Below are positions 6,261 through 12,582 of a stretch of 64,000 nucleotides of DNA, piece by piece. The position numbers and the translations under genes are program-made. The notes below the pieces were generated by a model. It saw only the letters and a program-made list of their open reading frames with translations, searched no databases and had not been told where the DNA came from. Location of the stretch: positions 4,464,001 to 4,528,000 of the forward strand of contig NZ_CP011340.1 of assembly GCF_001278075.1 (NCBI RefSeq), read 5' to 3'. How positions within the stretch are numbered: the first letter of the stretch is position 1; the number at the start of each line of letters is the position of its first letter. The stretch comes from Streptomyces pristinaespiralis. GTDB taxonomy: Bacteria > Actinomycetota > Actinomycetes > Streptomycetales > Streptomycetaceae.

Positions 6261-6326
6261 GTCCTGCATTCAAGGGGCACCCCCGGTCAAAGCGTCCGAA
6301 TGGCTGTGCGCAATAATGCTTGTGAA

Positions 6327-6342
6327 TGTGAACGCGTTTACA
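6327..6342. promoter_or_regulatory. Rex (NADH/NAD+ sensor) operator of the cyd operon
   Basis: TGTGAACGCGTTTACA differs by one base from the Streptomyces Rex operator consensus TGTGAACGCGTTCACA. It lies 86 bases upstream of cydA, the classical Rex target in S. coelicolor. A second TGTGAA immediately to its left (6321-6326) creates an overlapping half-site. Expected effect: repression when NADH/NAD+ is low and release during oxygen limitation. Confidence 0.88.
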
Positions 6343-6427
6343 AGCGCGTCCCGGTTCCTCCCGGAATCAGTCGAAAGGGGAGGGGGACGGCTGCCGCTGT
6401 GACCACGGCGACGTAAGGAGAGACGAC

Positions 6428-7936
6428 GTGGACATCGCTCTGGCGCCAGAGACCTTGGCGCGATGGCAGTTCGGCATCACCACCGTCTACCACTTCCTGT
6501 TCGTCCCCCTCACGATCTCGCTCGCGGCCCTCACCGCCGGCCTGCAGACCGCATGGGTGCGCACGGGTAAGGAGAAGTACCTCAGGGCCACCAAGTTCTG
6601 GGGCAAGCTCTTCCTGATCAACATCGCCATGGGCGTCGTCACGGGCATCGTCCAGGAGTTCCAGTTCGGGATGAACTGGTCCGACTACTCGCGCTTCGTC
6701 GGTGACGTCTTCGGCGCGCCGCTCGCCTTCGAGGCGCTGATCGCCTTCTTCTTCGAGTCCACCTTCATCGGGCTGTGGATCTTCGGCTGGGACAAGCTGC
6801 CCCAGAAGATCCACCTGGCCTGCATCTGGATGGTCTCGATCGGCACCATCCTCTCCGCCTACTTCATCCTGGCCGCCAACTCCTGGATGCAGCACCCGGT
6901 CGGCTACCGGATCAACGAGGAACGCGGGCGGGCCGAGCTCACCGACTTCTGGCTGGTCCTGACCCAGAACACCGCGCTCACCCAGTTCTTCCACACCATG
7001 ACGGCGGCCTTCCTGGTCGGCGGCGCGTTCATGGCGGGCATATCGGCCTACCACCTGGCCCGTAAGCGGCACGTCCCCGTGATGCGGATGTCGCTGCGGG
7101 TGGGCCTGGTCACGGTCACGATCGCCGGTCTGATGACCGCTGTCAGCGGTGACCTGCTCGGCAAGGTGATGTACGAGCAGCAGCCCATGAAGATGGCGGC
7201 CGCCGAAGCGCTCTGGGACGGCGAGGCGCCCGCTCCGTTCTCGGTCTTCGCCTACGGCGACGTCGACGAGGGCCACAACAAGGTGGCCGTCGAGATCCCG
7301 GGCCTGTTGTCCTTCCTCGCGCACAGCGACTTCGACTCCTACGTCCCCGGCATCAACGACGTCAACGAGGAACTGCAGGAGACCTACGGGCCCGGCGACT
7401 ACCGGCCCAACATCCCCGTCGCCTACTGGGGCTTCCGCTGGATGATCGGTTTCGGCATGGCCTCCCTCACCATCGGGATGATCGGGCTCTGGCTGACCCG
7501 CAGAAAGTTCCTGCTGCCCGCCGCGCTCCGCACGGGCGAGGACGAGGTGCCCCACCTGGTCCTCTTCAGGAACAAGGCGCTCAGCCCCCGTCTGGGCAGG
7601 TGGTACTGGCTGATCGCGCTGTGGACGATGGCCTTCCCCCTGATCGCCAACTCGTGGGGCTGGATCTTCACCGAGATGGGCAGGCAGCCGTGGGTCGTCT
7701 ACGGAGTGATGCGCACTCGTGACGCGGTCTCCCCCGGTGTGTCCCAGGGCGAGGTGCTCATCTCGATGGGCGTCTTCACCCTGCTCTACGCCCTACTCGC
7801 GGTGATCGAGGTCAGGCTGCTCGTGAAGTACGTCAAGGCCGGCCCGCCCGAACTCACCGAGGCCGACCTCACCCCGCCCACCAAGATCGGCGGCGACGAC
7901 CGTGACGCCGACCGGCCGATGGCCTTCTCGTACTGA
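6428..7936 (+). CDS. cydA: cytochrome bd ubiquinol/menaquinol oxidase subunit I
   Basis: Membrane quinol oxidase subunit carrying haems b558, b595 and d, part of the high-affinity terminal oxidase. It has 502 residues, the short Q-loop type, with about nine membrane helices. Landmarks matching E. coli CydA: His22 in TTVYHFLFVPLT, Glu102 and Glu110 in the FEALIAFFFEST block, His189 in FFHTM, Met339 in FRWMIG and GRQPW at about 418. The GTG start follows AAGGAG at about 6416. First gene of a cydA-cydB-cydDC-kinase run behind a Rex operator, so oxygen/redox control is expected. Confidence 0.97.
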   Translation: MDIALAPETLARWQFGITTVYHFLFVPLTISLAALTAGLQTAWVRTGKEKYLRATKFWGKLFLINIAMGVVTGIVQEFQFGMNWSDYSRFVGDVFGAPLAFEALIAFFFESTFIGLWIFGWDKLPQKIHLACIWMVSIGTILSAYFILAANSWMQHPVGYRINEERGRAELTDFWLVLTQNTALTQFFHTMTAAFLVGGAFMAGISAYHLARKRHVPVMRMSLRVGLVTVTIAGLMTAVSGDLLGKVMYEQQPMKMAAAEALWDGEAPAPFSVFAYGDVDEGHNKVAVEIPGLLSFLAHSDFDSYVPGINDVNEELQETYGPGDYRPNIPVAYWGFRWMIGFGMASLTIGMIGLWLTRRKFLLPAALRTGEDEVPHLVLFRNKALSPRLGRWYWLIALWTMAFPLIANSWGWIFTEMGRQPWVVYGVMRTRDAVSPGVSQGEVLISMGVFTLLYALLAVIEVRLLVKYVKAGPPELTEADLTPPTKIGGDDRDADRPMAFSY

Positions 7937-7959: not shown

Positions 7960-8961
7960 ATGGAACTCCACAACGTCTGGTTCGTACTCATCGCCGTCCT
8001 GTGGATCGGCTACTTCTTCCTGGAGGGCTTCGACTTCGGTATCGGCGTCCTCACCAAGCTGCTGGCGAGGGACCGCTCCGAGCGACGTGTCCTGATCAAC
8101 ACCATCGGACCGGTCTGGGACGGCAACGAGGTGTGGCTGCTCACGGCGGGCGGCGCCACGTTCGCCGCGTTCCCCGAGTGGTACGCCACGCTCTTCTCGG
8201 GCTTCTATCTCCCGCTACTGCTCATCCTCGTCTGCCTGATCGTGCGAGGGGTCGCGTTCGAGTACCGGCACAAGCGGACGGAGGAGCGCTGGCAGACCAA
8301 CTGGGAGCACGCGATCTTCTGGACCTCGCTGCTGCCGGCCTTCCTGTGGGGCGTCGCCTTCGGCAACATCGCGCGCGGCGTGAAGATCGACGCGAACAAG
8401 GAGTACGTCGGCGGTCTCCTCGACCTCCTCAACCCGTACGCACTGCTCGGCGGCCTGGTGACGCTGACGCTGTTCACCTTCCACGGTGCGGTCTTCGCGG
8501 CGCTGAAGACGGTGGGTGACATCAGGACCCGCGCGAGGGCCCTCGCCCTGAGGCTCGGACTGCTCGCCATGGTTCCGGCGCTCGGTTTCCTGCTGTGGAC
8601 CCAGGCGTCGCGCGGTGACGGCAAGAGCCTGGTGGCGCTGATCGTCGCGGCCGTGGCGCTGGCCGGAGCGGTCGTCGCGGTGAAGGCCGGCAGGGAGGGC
8701 TGGTCGTTCGCCCTCTCGGGGGTCACCATCGCCACCTCGGTGGCGATGCTGTTCCTGGCGCTCTTCCCTGACGTGATGCCTTCCTCTCTCGACGAGGCGT
8801 GGAGCCTGACCGTCACCAATGCCTCGTCGAGCCCGTACACCCTCAAGATCATGACTTGGTGCGCGGCCGTCGCTGCCCCGCTGGTGATGCTCTATCAGGG
8901 GTGGACCTACTGGGTGTTCCGTAAGCGGATCGGCACCCAGCACATAGCCGATGCGCACTAG
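7960..8961 (+). CDS. cydB: cytochrome bd oxidase subunit II
   Basis: Partner subunit of CydA, 333 residues, about eight to nine hydrophobic helices. The N terminus (ELHNVWFVLIAVLWIGYFF) followed by LEGFDFGIG, and GPVWDGNEVWLL, are typical of the family. It starts 23 bases after the cydA stop, with GAGGAGC upstream of the ATG, and ends 6 bases before cydDC, so it is clearly cotranscribed. Confidence 0.97.
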   Translation: MELHNVWFVLIAVLWIGYFFLEGFDFGIGVLTKLLARDRSERRVLINTIGPVWDGNEVWLLTAGGATFAAFPEWYATLFSGFYLPLLLILVCLIVRGVAFEYRHKRTEERWQTNWEHAIFWTSLLPAFLWGVAFGNIARGVKIDANKEYVGGLLDLLNPYALLGGLVTLTLFTFHGAVFAALKTVGDIRTRARALALRLGLLAMVPALGFLLWTQASRGDGKSLVALIVAAVALAGAVVAVKAGREGWSFALSGVTIATSVAMLFLALFPDVMPSSLDEAWSLTVTNASSSPYTLKIMTWCAAVAAPLVMLYQGWTYWVFRKRIGTQHIADAH

Positions 8962-8967
8962 CGGGAG

Positions 8968-11900
8968 ATGTTTCACGTGAAACCGATCGACCCGCGGCTG
9001 CTTCGGTACGCGCACGCGACCCGCCGCTTCCTGGCCGCAGTAGTGGTGCTCGGGGTCGCCGGTGCGGTCCTGGTCATCGCCCAGGCGATGCTCATCGCCG
9101 AGGTGGTGGTCGGGGCGTTCCAAGGAGGGCTGTCCGTTTCGGGGCTCGGCACACCGCTCGTGCTGCTGGCCGCGGTGGCGGTCGGACGCGCGGCTGTTTC
9201 CTGGCTGACGGAACTGGCCGCGCACCGCGCGAGCGCGGCGGTGAAGTCGGAGCTCCGGCGCCGGCTCCTGGAGCGGGCCGCCGAGTTGGGGCCGGGCCGG
9301 CTGAGCGGACAGAACACCGGATCGCTCGTCGCGCTGGCCACGCGAGGTGTCGACGCGCTGGACGACTACTTCTCGCGCTATCTGCCCCAACTGGGACTCG
9401 CGGTCGTGGTGCCGGTCGCGGTGCTCGCGCGGATCGTCACAGAGGACTGGGTCTCGGCCGCGGTCATCGTGGTGACCCTGCCCTTGATCCCCCTGTTCAT
9501 GGTGCTGATCGGCTGGGCGACGCAATCGAGCATGGACCGCCAGTGGCGGCTGCTGTCCCGGCTCTCCGGCCACTTTCTGGATGTGGTCGCGGGACTGCCG
9601 ACACTGAAGGTCTTCGGACGGGCGAAGGCCCAGGCCGAGTCCATCCGGAGCATCACGACCCAGTACCGCCGAGCGACCATGCGCACGCTGCGGATCGCGT
9701 TCCTGTCGTCCTTCGCGCTGGAACTGCTCTCGACGCTGTCGGTGGCCCTGGTGGCCGTCGGTGTCGGTATGCGGCTGGTCCACGGTGATCTGGATCTGTA
9801 CACGGGACTGGTGATCCTCATCCTCGCGCCGGAGGCATATCTGCCGATCCGGCAGGTGGGGGCCCAGTTCCACGCCGCCGCAGAGGGCCTCTCCGCGGCG
9901 GAGGAGATCTTCGACGTGCTCGAGACCGCACCGCGCCGATCCGGGGAAGCTCCCGTACCCGGCACGCTCCGGCTGGAGGTCGACGGGCTGACGGTCCGCC
10001 ACCATGGCCGTGCGGAACCCTCGTTGGACCGCGCGTCACTGGTGGTCGAACCGGGCGAGACGGTCGCCCTCGTCGGAGAGAGCGGCGTCGGCAAGTCCAC
10101 CCTGCTCGACGTGCTGCTGGGCTTCGTGGACCCGGCAGAGGGGCGCGTACGCGTCGGCGGAACGGACCTGACGGATCTGGACATGGAGGCGTGGAGGCGG
10201 CAGATCGCCCGGGTCCCCCAGCTGCCGTATCTCTTCGCCGGAACGGTCGCGGAGAACGTGCGGCTCGCGCGGCCGGACGCGGACGACGCTGCCGTCATGG
10301 CCGCGTTGCGCGAGGCGGGGGCGTACGACTTCATCGCCGCCCTTCCCCAAGGGCCGGACACGCTGATCGGGGACGAGGGCGTCGGTCTCTCCGCCGGCCA
10401 GCGGCAACGGCTCGCGCTGGCGAGGGCGTTCCTCGCGGACAGGCCGCTGCTGCTGCTCGACGAGCCGACGGCCGCCCTGGACGGGGCCACGGAGGAAGGC
10501 ATCGTCGAGGCGGTGGGGCGGCTGGCTGAGGGACGGACCGTGCTGCTCGTCGTCCACCGCCCGGCACTCCTGGCGGTGGCGGACCGGGTCGTCCGACTGT
10601 CCCGGCCGGCAACCCCGCGCGAGACGGAGTTCGGTGCACCGGCGGTGTCGGCCGAGCCGGGGGCAGCGGGGTCGAGCACGGCCGATCCGCTCCCCGCGCC
10701 GCACCCTGCATCTGGCGGAGTGCGGGGCGCGAAGGAAAGCCGGCCGCTGGTCCGGGTCCGGGAGACCGCCCGGAACCTGCGCGGGCGGCTCGCACTGGCC
10801 CTGTTGCTGGGCAGCCTCGCCCTCGGCTCCGCGGTCGGCCTCATGGCCGTCTCGGGATGGCTCATCTCCCGCGCGTCCGAACAGCCGCCGGTGCTGCACC
10901 TGATGGTGGCCGTGACGGCCACCCGGGCATTCGGGATCGGACGGGCCGTCTTCCGGTACGCGGAGCGGCTCGTGTCCCATGACGCCGTACTGCGGATGCT
11001 CGCCGAGATGCGCGTAGCGGTGTACCGCAGGCTCGAACGGATCGCGCCCGCCGGGCTCGGCCGGACCAGGCGCGGTGACCTGCTCTCCCGGCTGGTCGCC
11101 GACGTGGACGCCCTGCAGGACTACTGGCTTCGATGGCTGCTGCCTGCCGGCACGGCCGTCCTGGTCGGCGCCGGTTCCGTCGGTTTCACCGCCTGGCTGC
11201 TGCCCGAGGCGGGAGCGGTCCTCGCCGTCGGCCTGCTCGTGGCGGGAGTGGGCGTCCCGCTGATCGGCGGGGCGTTCGCCCGGCGCGCGGAGCAGCAACT
11301 CGCGCCCGCGCGCGGCGCCCTGGCCACCGGCGTCGTCGATCTGCTGCGGGGGACGGCCGAGCTGACCGTCGCAGGTGCGCTGCCGCGGCGCCTCGCTTCT
11401 GCGCGCGACGCCGACCGGGCACTGACCCGCATCGCGGCACGCCAGGCCGCCGCCACCGCGCTCGGCGGTGGGCTCTCCGCCCTCGTCTGCTCGCTGACCG
11501 TGGTGTGCGCCGCGTTGGTCGGTGTACAGGCGGTGGCGACGGGGCGTCTCGACGGGACCAGCCTGGCGGTCGTCGTGCTCACACCGCTCGCCGCCTTCGA
11601 AGTGGTCTCGGTGCTGCCCCTCGCGGTGCAGTACCGGCGCCGGGTCACGCGCAGTGCGGAGCGGGTGTACGAGGTCCTCGACGCGCCTGTTCCCGTGCGG
11701 GAGCCGGCCCGGCCGGCCGCTCCGCCCGCCACGGCGTTCCCGCTGGAACTGCGCGGGACCGGCGCACGGTACGCGGGCCGGCGGCGGGACGCGCTGAGCG
11801 GGTTCGATCTGACGCTGACCCCCGGGAAGCGGGTCGCTGTCGTCGGCACCTCGGGCTCAGGCAAGACGACGCTCGCGCAGGTGCTGCTCCGGTTCCTGGA

Positions 11901-12582
11901 CGCCGGATCGGGGACCTACACCATCGGCGGTGTGCCCGCCGGTGAGATGGAGGGCGACGCCGTGCGGCGTTTCGTGGGGCTGTGCGCCCAGGACGCCCAT
12001 CTCTTCGACAGTTCCGTACGCGAGAACCTCAGGCTCGCCCGCCCGGACGCGACGGAGGAGGAACTGAGGGGAGCGCTCGAGGACGCCCGGCTGCTGGAGT
12101 GGGTCGACGGCCTCCCCGACGGACTCGACACCCTCGTCGGGGAGCACGGCGCCCGGCTCTCCGGAGGCCAGCGCCAGAGGCTGGCCCTGGCGCGGGCGCT
12201 CCTCGCCGCCTTCCCTGTACTCGTACTGGACGAGCCCGCCGAGCATCTCGACCTGGCGACGGCCGACGCGCTCACCGCCGACCTGCTGGCGGTGACGGAA
12301 AGGCGTGCGGCGCGGCCGGGAGGGCGCGCAGCAGCGGCCGGAAACGGGACGGGCCCGGGGGACGGCATCGCGACGGCGCCGGCGACCGTGTTCATCACCC
12401 ATCGGCTGCGGGGCCTGGAGGCGGTCGACGAGGTCGTGGTGCTGGAGTCGGGGCGCGTGGTGCAGCGGGGGCCGTACGAGGACCTCGCCGTGGTCGAAGG
12501 GCCGCTGCGGACGATGCTCGAACGCGAACAGGCCACCGACCGGATCGGCACCCGACTTTCCCTGTCAAATGGGACTAATTAG
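8968..12582 (+). CDS. cydDC: CydD-CydC fusion, heterodimer-like thiol/haem ABC exporter in one chain
   Basis: ABC exporter needed for cytochrome bd assembly, moving cysteine/glutathione-type thiols across the membrane; in E. coli it is two proteins, here one of 1204 residues. The CydD half has six membrane helices in about residues 20-310 and an ATPase with GESGVGKST (about 369), LSAGQRQRLALARAF (about 474) and LLLLDEPTAALD. A Pro/Ala-rich linker (about 545-600) leads to the CydC half with helices in about 600-890 and GTSGSGKTT (about 957), LSGGQRQRLALARAL and VLVLDEPAEHLD. An insertion of about 20 residues follows the second Walker B. The ATG at 8968 has GGGAG upstream, and its first codons are formed by a parS site. 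Confidence 0.95.
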   Translation: MFHVKPIDPRLLRYAHATRRFLAAVVVLGVAGAVLVIAQAMLIAEVVVGAFQGGLSVSGLGTPLVLLAAVAVGRAAVSWLTELAAHRASAAVKSELRRRLLERAAELGPGRLSGQNTGSLVALATRGVDALDDYFSRYLPQLGLAVVVPVAVLARIVTEDWVSAAVIVVTLPLIPLFMVLIGWATQSSMDRQWRLLSRLSGHFLDVVAGLPTLKVFGRAKAQAESIRSITTQYRRATMRTLRIAFLSSFALELLSTLSVALVAVGVGMRLVHGDLDLYTGLVILILAPEAYLPIRQVGAQFHAAAEGLSAAEEIFDVLETAPRRSGEAPVPGTLRLEVDGLTVRHHGRAEPSLDRASLVVEPGETVALVGESGVGKSTLLDVLLGFVDPAEGRVRVGGTDLTDLDMEAWRRQIARVPQLPYLFAGTVAENVRLARPDADDAAVMAALREAGAYDFIAALPQGPDTLIGDEGVGLSAGQRQRLALARAFLADRPLLLLDEPTAALDGATEEGIVEAVGRLAEGRTVLLVVHRPALLAVADRVVRLSRPATPRETEFGAPAVSAEPGAAGSSTADPLPAPHPASGGVRGAKESRPLVRVRETARNLRGRLALALLLGSLALGSAVGLMAVSGWLISRASEQPPVLHLMVAVTATRAFGIGRAVFRYAERLVSHDAVLRMLAEMRVAVYRRLERIAPAGLGRTRRGDLLSRLVADVDALQDYWLRWLLPAGTAVLVGAGSVGFTAWLLPEAGAVLAVGLLVAGVGVPLIGGAFARRAEQQLAPARGALATGVVDLLRGTAELTVAGALPRRLASARDADRALTRIAARQAAATALGGGLSALVCSLTVVCAALVGVQAVATGRLDGTSLAVVVLTPLAAFEVVSVLPLAVQYRRRVTRSAERVYEVLDAPVPVREPARPAAPPATAFPLELRGTGARYAGRRRDALSGFDLTLTPGKRVAVVGTSGSGKTTLAQVLLRFLDAGSGTYTIGGVPAGEMEGDAVRRFVGLCAQDAHLFDSSVRENLRLARPDATEEELRGALEDARLLEWVDGLPDGLDTLVGEHGARLSGGQRQRLALARALLAAFPVLVLDEPAEHLDLATADALTADLLAVTERRAARPGGRAAAAGNGTGPGDGIATAPATVFITHRLRGLEAVDEVVVLESGRVVQRGPYEDLAVVEGPLRTMLEREQATDRIGTRLSLSNGTN
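8970..8983. other. parS centromere site (ParB binding)
   Basis: GTTTCACGTGAAAC is a perfect 14-bp palindrome identical to the Streptomyces ParB-binding core; with flanks it matches the 16-bp consensus TGTTTCACGTGAAACA at 15 of 16 positions. It overlaps codons 1-6 of cydDC, so the protein starts MFHVKP. parS sites cluster around oriC in Streptomyces, supporting an origin-proximal window. Confidence 0.9.

Follow-up and report, generated by a model that had tools for sequence, protein, structure and literature searches.

The partitioning site parS and the start of cydDC, a respiratory-assembly gene, share the same few bases in Streptomyces pristinaespiralis, which raises the question of which codon opens the gene, whether selection holds the DNA or only the peptide in place, and whether ParB loaded there would interfere with cyd expression. 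The window that we analysed is a stretch of 64 kb (contig NZ_CP011340.1, positions 4,464,001 to 4,528,000), and position numbers below refer to it unless they are given for the contig. The original prediction for this locus was that a perfect palindrome forms codons 1-6 of cydDC and thereby constrains its N terminus to MFHVKP.

The palindrome and its array

The 14-mer GTTTCACGTGAAAC begins at the third base of ATG 8968-8970, just as predicted, and occupies positions 8970-8983 as an exact copy of the parS consensus palindrome. No other match with two or fewer mismatches occurs in the window (shuffle mean, 0.05). The contig of 8,532,592 bases carries 16 exact copies and two with one mismatch, and all 18 sites fall within 4.202-4.473 Mb, the exact copies spanning 271 kb around parAB; a control with the reversed pattern gave 0 matches over the whole contig. 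The cydDC copy is the outermost parS on its side of the array and lies 60.6 kb from parAB (approximately 4.4124-4.4144 Mb), where a ParA-like gene starts near 4412354 (L121:2855) and parB comes next. The ParB gene (L121:3775-4872) scores 202.8 bits against TIGR00180 (cutoff, 58.45), and for the ParA gene (L121:2855-3775) the matches to ParA-type ATPase models do not reach the curated cutoffs. One of the one-mismatch sites (G000:C1:4329191-4329204) sits in ordinary codons inside a predicted frame of 954 aa and may be a chance occurrence.

Its sequence, copy number and clustering thus identify 8970-8983 as parS. Judged by the consensus match, the clustering around parAB, the ParB and ParA genes encoded in the same genome and the conservation of the orthologous DNA (see below), it is an ordinary parS-type site. 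CACGTG cores are in general bound by other proteins, and the palindrome could accordingly be the target of another DNA-binding protein and resemble parS by coincidence. We regard this as extremely improbable, since the 15 further exact copies cluster around parAB with no match in the control, the palindrome differs from the Rex operator pattern, and the same 14 bp are described as the S. coelicolor parS bound by ParB (PMC13245405) and also for Embleya chromosomes (PMC13152386). The S. coelicolor array, as described, is built of these 14 bp, with 23 central copies, a similar number, around oriC and parAB, and that of S. venezuelae contains 16-17 parS with ChIP-seq peaks at parS (PMC4852455, PMC12511625). 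Unlike the Streptomyces arrays as these two sources describe them, the present one has a copy, that at cydDC, which sits on a translation start (PMC4852455, PMC12511625).

The features of the locus are collected in Table 1. Their order and coordinates bear out the prediction that parS overlies the ribosome-binding and start region of cydDC within a cydA-cydB-cydDC row. CydD and CydC are encoded in tandem in one frame (NCBIfam TIGR02857, 938.5 bits; TIGR02868, 907.1 bits; above the curated cutoff), which would comprise 1204 aa if opened by ATG 8968-8970. The Rex-operator-like sequence upstream of cydA (0.18 such matches expected by chance at up to three mismatches) fits the published control of the cyd operon by Rex in S. 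coelicolor and S. avermitilis (PMC5355995). Two neighbouring cydB copies were observed in each of two relatives, at G201:C5:3625696-3629525 and at G207:C120:39500-43184, one of those in G201 having an in-frame TGA.

Table 1. Sequence features of the cyd gene row and of the parS site at the cydDC start (window coordinates)
Feature	Position	Strand	Basis or remark
Rex-operator-like sequence	6326..6343	+	Upstream of cydA; 2 mismatches to TTGTGAANNNNTTCACAA
cydA	6428..7936	+	ORF; opens the row; closest NCBIfam models are those of cytochrome bd subunit I, scores under the curated cutoffs
cydB	7960..8961	+	ORF; TIGR00203, 344.7 bits, above cutoff; stop 15 bp before GTG 8977
Likely Shine-Dalgarno sequence GGGAG	8963..8967	+	Sequence; 8 nt aligned spacing to GTG 8977
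ATG, originally predicted start, probably not used	8968..8970	+	CTG/ACG at this place in 16/132 loci; Shine-Dalgarno sequence too near
parS palindrome GTTTCACGTGAAAC	8970..8983	.	Exact; 1 of 16 genome copies; exact in 132/147 same-genus loci
Inferred cydDC start GTG, parS core	8977..8979	+	Orthologous start column
cydDC, fused CydD-CydC ABC exporter	8977..12582	+	1201 aa counted from GTG
Lys2 codon AAA inside parS	8980..8982	+	AAA in 135/144 Lys2 codons, 147 loci

The start codon of cydDC

To avoid selecting on the site itself, same-genus loci were sought via cydB and not via parS. The set comprised the best 149 of 159 genomes by cydB match, and the DNA behind cydB was read in all 149; parS-less loci may be commoner in the other 10, whose cydB matches were the weakest. 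cydDC could be aligned in 147 of the 149 loci, L147 and L177 having no cydDC match. Outside the genus but within its family, 60 of 80 genomes were queried, which yielded 59 cydDC loci in 16 genera (nothing in G199 passed the threshold, and L274, a second paralog, was excluded). Another 80 loci, retrieved in part with the peptide MFHVKPID and in an order set by the query, contained exact parS in 78 cases, a biased sample that gives no frequency.

Among the 147 same-genus loci, thus within the best 149 of 159 genomes, the cydDC start carries exact parS in 132, a one-mismatch site in one, a two-mismatch remnant in one and no parS in 13. In the 132 exact loci the codon aligned to ATG 8968 is ATG (61), GTG (52), CTG (13), TTG (3) or ACG (3). 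The 13 parS-less loci place ATG (11) or GTG (2) in the column of the GTG at the parS core, followed by Lys or Arg and then Pro. The same parS-less start, with ATG or GTG in the core-GTG column, was found in 40/40 loci from 15 other genera; the remaining genus, g7, has 19 loci, six with exact parS, 12 with GTTCCACGTGAAAC and one with none. Overall, the core-GTG column holds ATG or GTG in 54/54 parS-less loci and GTG in 150/150 parS-bearing loci (up to one mismatch). CTG or ACG occupies the place of ATG 8968 in 17 of these 150, and in 15 of the 17 no in-frame ATG, GTG or TTG was found in up to 51 nt upstream; a stop closes the upstream frame in 10 of those 15.

The position of the Shine-Dalgarno sequence points the same way. 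A match of at least four bases is present in 112/132 exact loci, and it lies 6-13 nt before the core GTG and only -3 to +4 nt from the place of ATG 8968. Less in favour of the GTG, the aligned spacing to it, mostly 8-11 nt in the 120 of 150 parS-bearing loci with a match, is longer than the mostly 4-8 nt of the 31 of 54 parS-less loci with one; no four-base match was found in 30/150 and 23/54 loci, respectively. Given the orthologous start column, the CTG and ACG codons at the ATG place and the Shine-Dalgarno register, initiation at GTG 8977-8979 is the simplest reading, and cydDC very probably starts there, at the centre of parS, rather than at ATG 8968.

A start at ATG 8968, which would make parS codons 1-6 and give MFHVKP, was rejected on the same three lines of evidence, and we consider it improbable. 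It can draw on the ATG, GTG or TTG present at that place in 116/132 exact loci and on the T kept before parS in 129/132. Set against this are the CTG or ACG in the other 16, a Shine-Dalgarno register too near in the 112 loci with a match, and the parS-less relatives, which start in the GTG column; the flanking T, moreover, is common to parS copies away from gene starts as well. In the 132 exact loci the second base out is a purine in 116, so that a start-type NTG is kept in most species with the exact site. As a control, 65 non-start exact copies from the same loci have T at 108/130 flanks and a purine next to it at 106/130, and the 15 other exact copies of the S. pristinaespiralis genome have T at 20/30 flanks. 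Since non-start copies have a nearly equal flank, the T looks like a property of parS, somewhat commoner at the start copy than elsewhere. There is room for some initiation upstream of GTG 8977 in parS-bearing species.

With the start at GTG 8977, which is codon 4 of the frame from 8968, the left half-site becomes untranslated spacer. The palindrome would then cover the spacer, the start codon, Lys2 and one base of Pro3, very probably giving CydDC the N terminus MKPIDPRLLRYA (MKPIDP); MFHVKP is very probably three residues too long. The part of the prediction that assigned codons 1-6 and MFHVKP to the palindrome is thus not supported, as parS-less orthologs start at the GTG column and 16/132 exact loci have CTG or ACG at the predicted start.

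Constraint on the DNA and origin of the overlap

Substitutions were counted per column as minimum changes on a tree of 205 loci, built from 570 columns of cydDC coding DNA (L008 was too short); the tree has weak nodes, and the counts are partly conditioned on carrying the site. With this conditioning, a parS column changed 0.21 times on average (14 columns) across the 133 same-genus loci that carry the site. In the same loci the mean was 29.2 for the 17 columns upstream (-24 to -8) and, downstream, 22.6 at third codon positions and 4.2 at first and second positions. The seven spacer columns average 18.9 changes in 54 parS-less loci, so that by itself the spacer is not constrained in this way. 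At the first base of the start codon, 11 or more changes fall among parS-less loci and 0 among 151 parS-bearing ones. Codon usage, which is not conditioned on the site, gives the same picture: Lys2 within parS is AAA in 135/144 cases across the 147 loci, and lysines in the first approximately 190 codons downstream are AAA in 7/184. The third base of Pro3, just outside parS, varies (CCG 91, CCA 32, CCC 7, CCT 2). Free synonymous variation of the 14 bases, named beforehand as an observation that would speak against the prediction, was looked for across the relatives and not seen, and the comparison of 0.21 with 22.6 changes, together with the AAA count, agrees with the expectation that the DNA is more conserved than the codons require. 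Hence, on these counts, selection acts on the DNA of parS beyond coding needs.

Parsimony on the tree gives five changes of site status, and the weak nodes mean that this figure does not fix the number of gains and losses. Under midpoint rooting, a clade of 42 loci is wholly without the site and the rest mostly carry it, which suggests that parS was laid over a pre-existing start, probably near the base of the genus plus g7. Several parS-less loci (e.g., L249, L299, L247) spell GTGAAGC or GTGAAAC at the start, so the right half-site is almost pre-made by Met-Lys-Pro. We propose that a start of (A/G)TG, Lys or Arg, and Pro existed beforehand, in which GTG, AAA and C would make up the right half-site GTGAAAC, and that the left half GTTTCAC may have arisen later, upstream of the start codon, where the spacer that follows the Shine-Dalgarno sequence was free to vary. 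All 14 bases would then have been frozen by selection for ParB loading, which fixed the GTG start and the otherwise rare AAA. ParB would load at the cydDC site as at other parS and slide outward, and cydDC may tolerate it because the core itself is a usable start codon at a workable spacing.

The site goes with a larger array: a selection of 15 complete genomes with the exact cydDC site all have 12-27 exact parS, and the 13 same-genus genomes without a site at the cydDC start all have 5-11. G080, which keeps a remnant at the cydDC start, has 16. In 54/134 site-bearing loci one to three extra parS (up to one mismatch) were found in the 125-160 nt upstream, which points to centromere building. 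Their distance from the start copy is 23-118 bp, with 34-38 bp the most frequent spacing (e.g., L038, L092, L111). In L294 (g7) the start parS is absent, the half-site GTGAAAC is kept and a parS variant lies 42 bp before the IDP codon, and L247 (g12) has a parS variant only at 45 bp before the IDP codon.

We also considered whether parS commonly sits on gene starts, and set the idea aside. Strings of ATG-parS-CC occur in 116/199 genomes; among 20 such places that were read, two are cydDC itself, and 15 of the other 18 open short frames of 6-98 aa. The remaining three frames are longer (L307, 325 aa; L313, 558 aa; L316, 228 aa), and with these judged by length only, the 20 places contained no second clear case of parS on a start. 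The 15 other exact sites of the S. pristinaespiralis genome were placed approximately, against simple ORF calls with a GC3 heuristic; by sequence, those at 4334213 and 4381411 are covered by an ORF only when it is extended to its full length, a likelier ATG lying downstream of them.

Possible effect on expression and place among known sites

The original prediction raised the possibility that segregation and cyd expression interfere. ParB at the cydDC start could act as a roadblock in the cyd operon, lowering CydDC relative to CydAB as ParB complexes assemble during sporulation, with the position kept for that purpose; we consider this unlikely. Regulation would explain why parS stays exactly on the start codon in most of the Streptomyces examined (132/147 same-genus loci), and it would link cytochrome bd maturation to sporulation-stage chromosome segregation; moreover, ParB is described as a repressor at parS3 and parS4 of P. 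aeruginosa (PMC7022226). However, site status changed five times by parsimony, 13/147 same-genus loci do without parS, and the extra parS in the gap (54/134) suggest centromere building and not a precise switch. ParB effects on adjacent genes are, as summarised in the same source, absent or small in several species: none was seen in B. subtilis, V. cholerae has few affected genes, and in S. pneumoniae one operon responds modestly (PMC7022226). The overlap of parS and the cydDC start is thus most likely a tolerated one. A translational switch by an RNA hairpin was rejected: the hairpin formed by the 14-mer is weak (-2.3 kcal/mol), and the fold of the start region is nothing out of the ordinary (z, -1.55).

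The parS sequence, the array to which it belongs, the start column shared with orthologs and the constraint on the DNA are observations. What we infer beyond them is that GTG serves as the start, that ParB binds here, in what order the overlap evolved and that cyd is little affected. We consider it likely, with good though not full confidence, that the site is a genuine ParB-loading parS of an array of about 16 copies, which evolved on a pre-existing start and would have little net effect on cyd expression.

Overlaps of parS with expression signals or coding sequence have been described before. In Mycobacterium bovis BCG one parS overlaps the -10 box of the gidB promoter and another lies inside parA (PMC2346475); these overlaps, as described there, concern a promoter or the middle of a gene beside the par genes, whereas at cydDC the start codon is concerned. 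parS3 and parS4 of P. aeruginosa lie, as does the cydDC copy, near the starts of genes outside the par operon, but they are described as intergenic and their repression was measured (PMC7022226), while the cydDC parS occupies a start within a gene row. No description of a parS with a start codon as its core, or of a parS at cydDC, was found in the mainly open-access literature searched. The kind of site is already known; its placement on a start codon would be a new variation.

For annotation, the locus is a warning that gene callers may make the CydDC N terminus three residues too long. The overlap also lends itself to recoding, by which one could ask whether ParB matters for expression through the operon. 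One stretch of 14 bases would here carry two messages, a ParB loading site on the one hand and spacer, start codon and second codon on the other. It suggests one way in which a new parS may develop, namely from a half-site spelled by a start region (GTG-AAA-C). The case is relevant to the expansion of centromere regions, which a study of the permissive zone in Caulobacter has raised as a question (PMC5815017).
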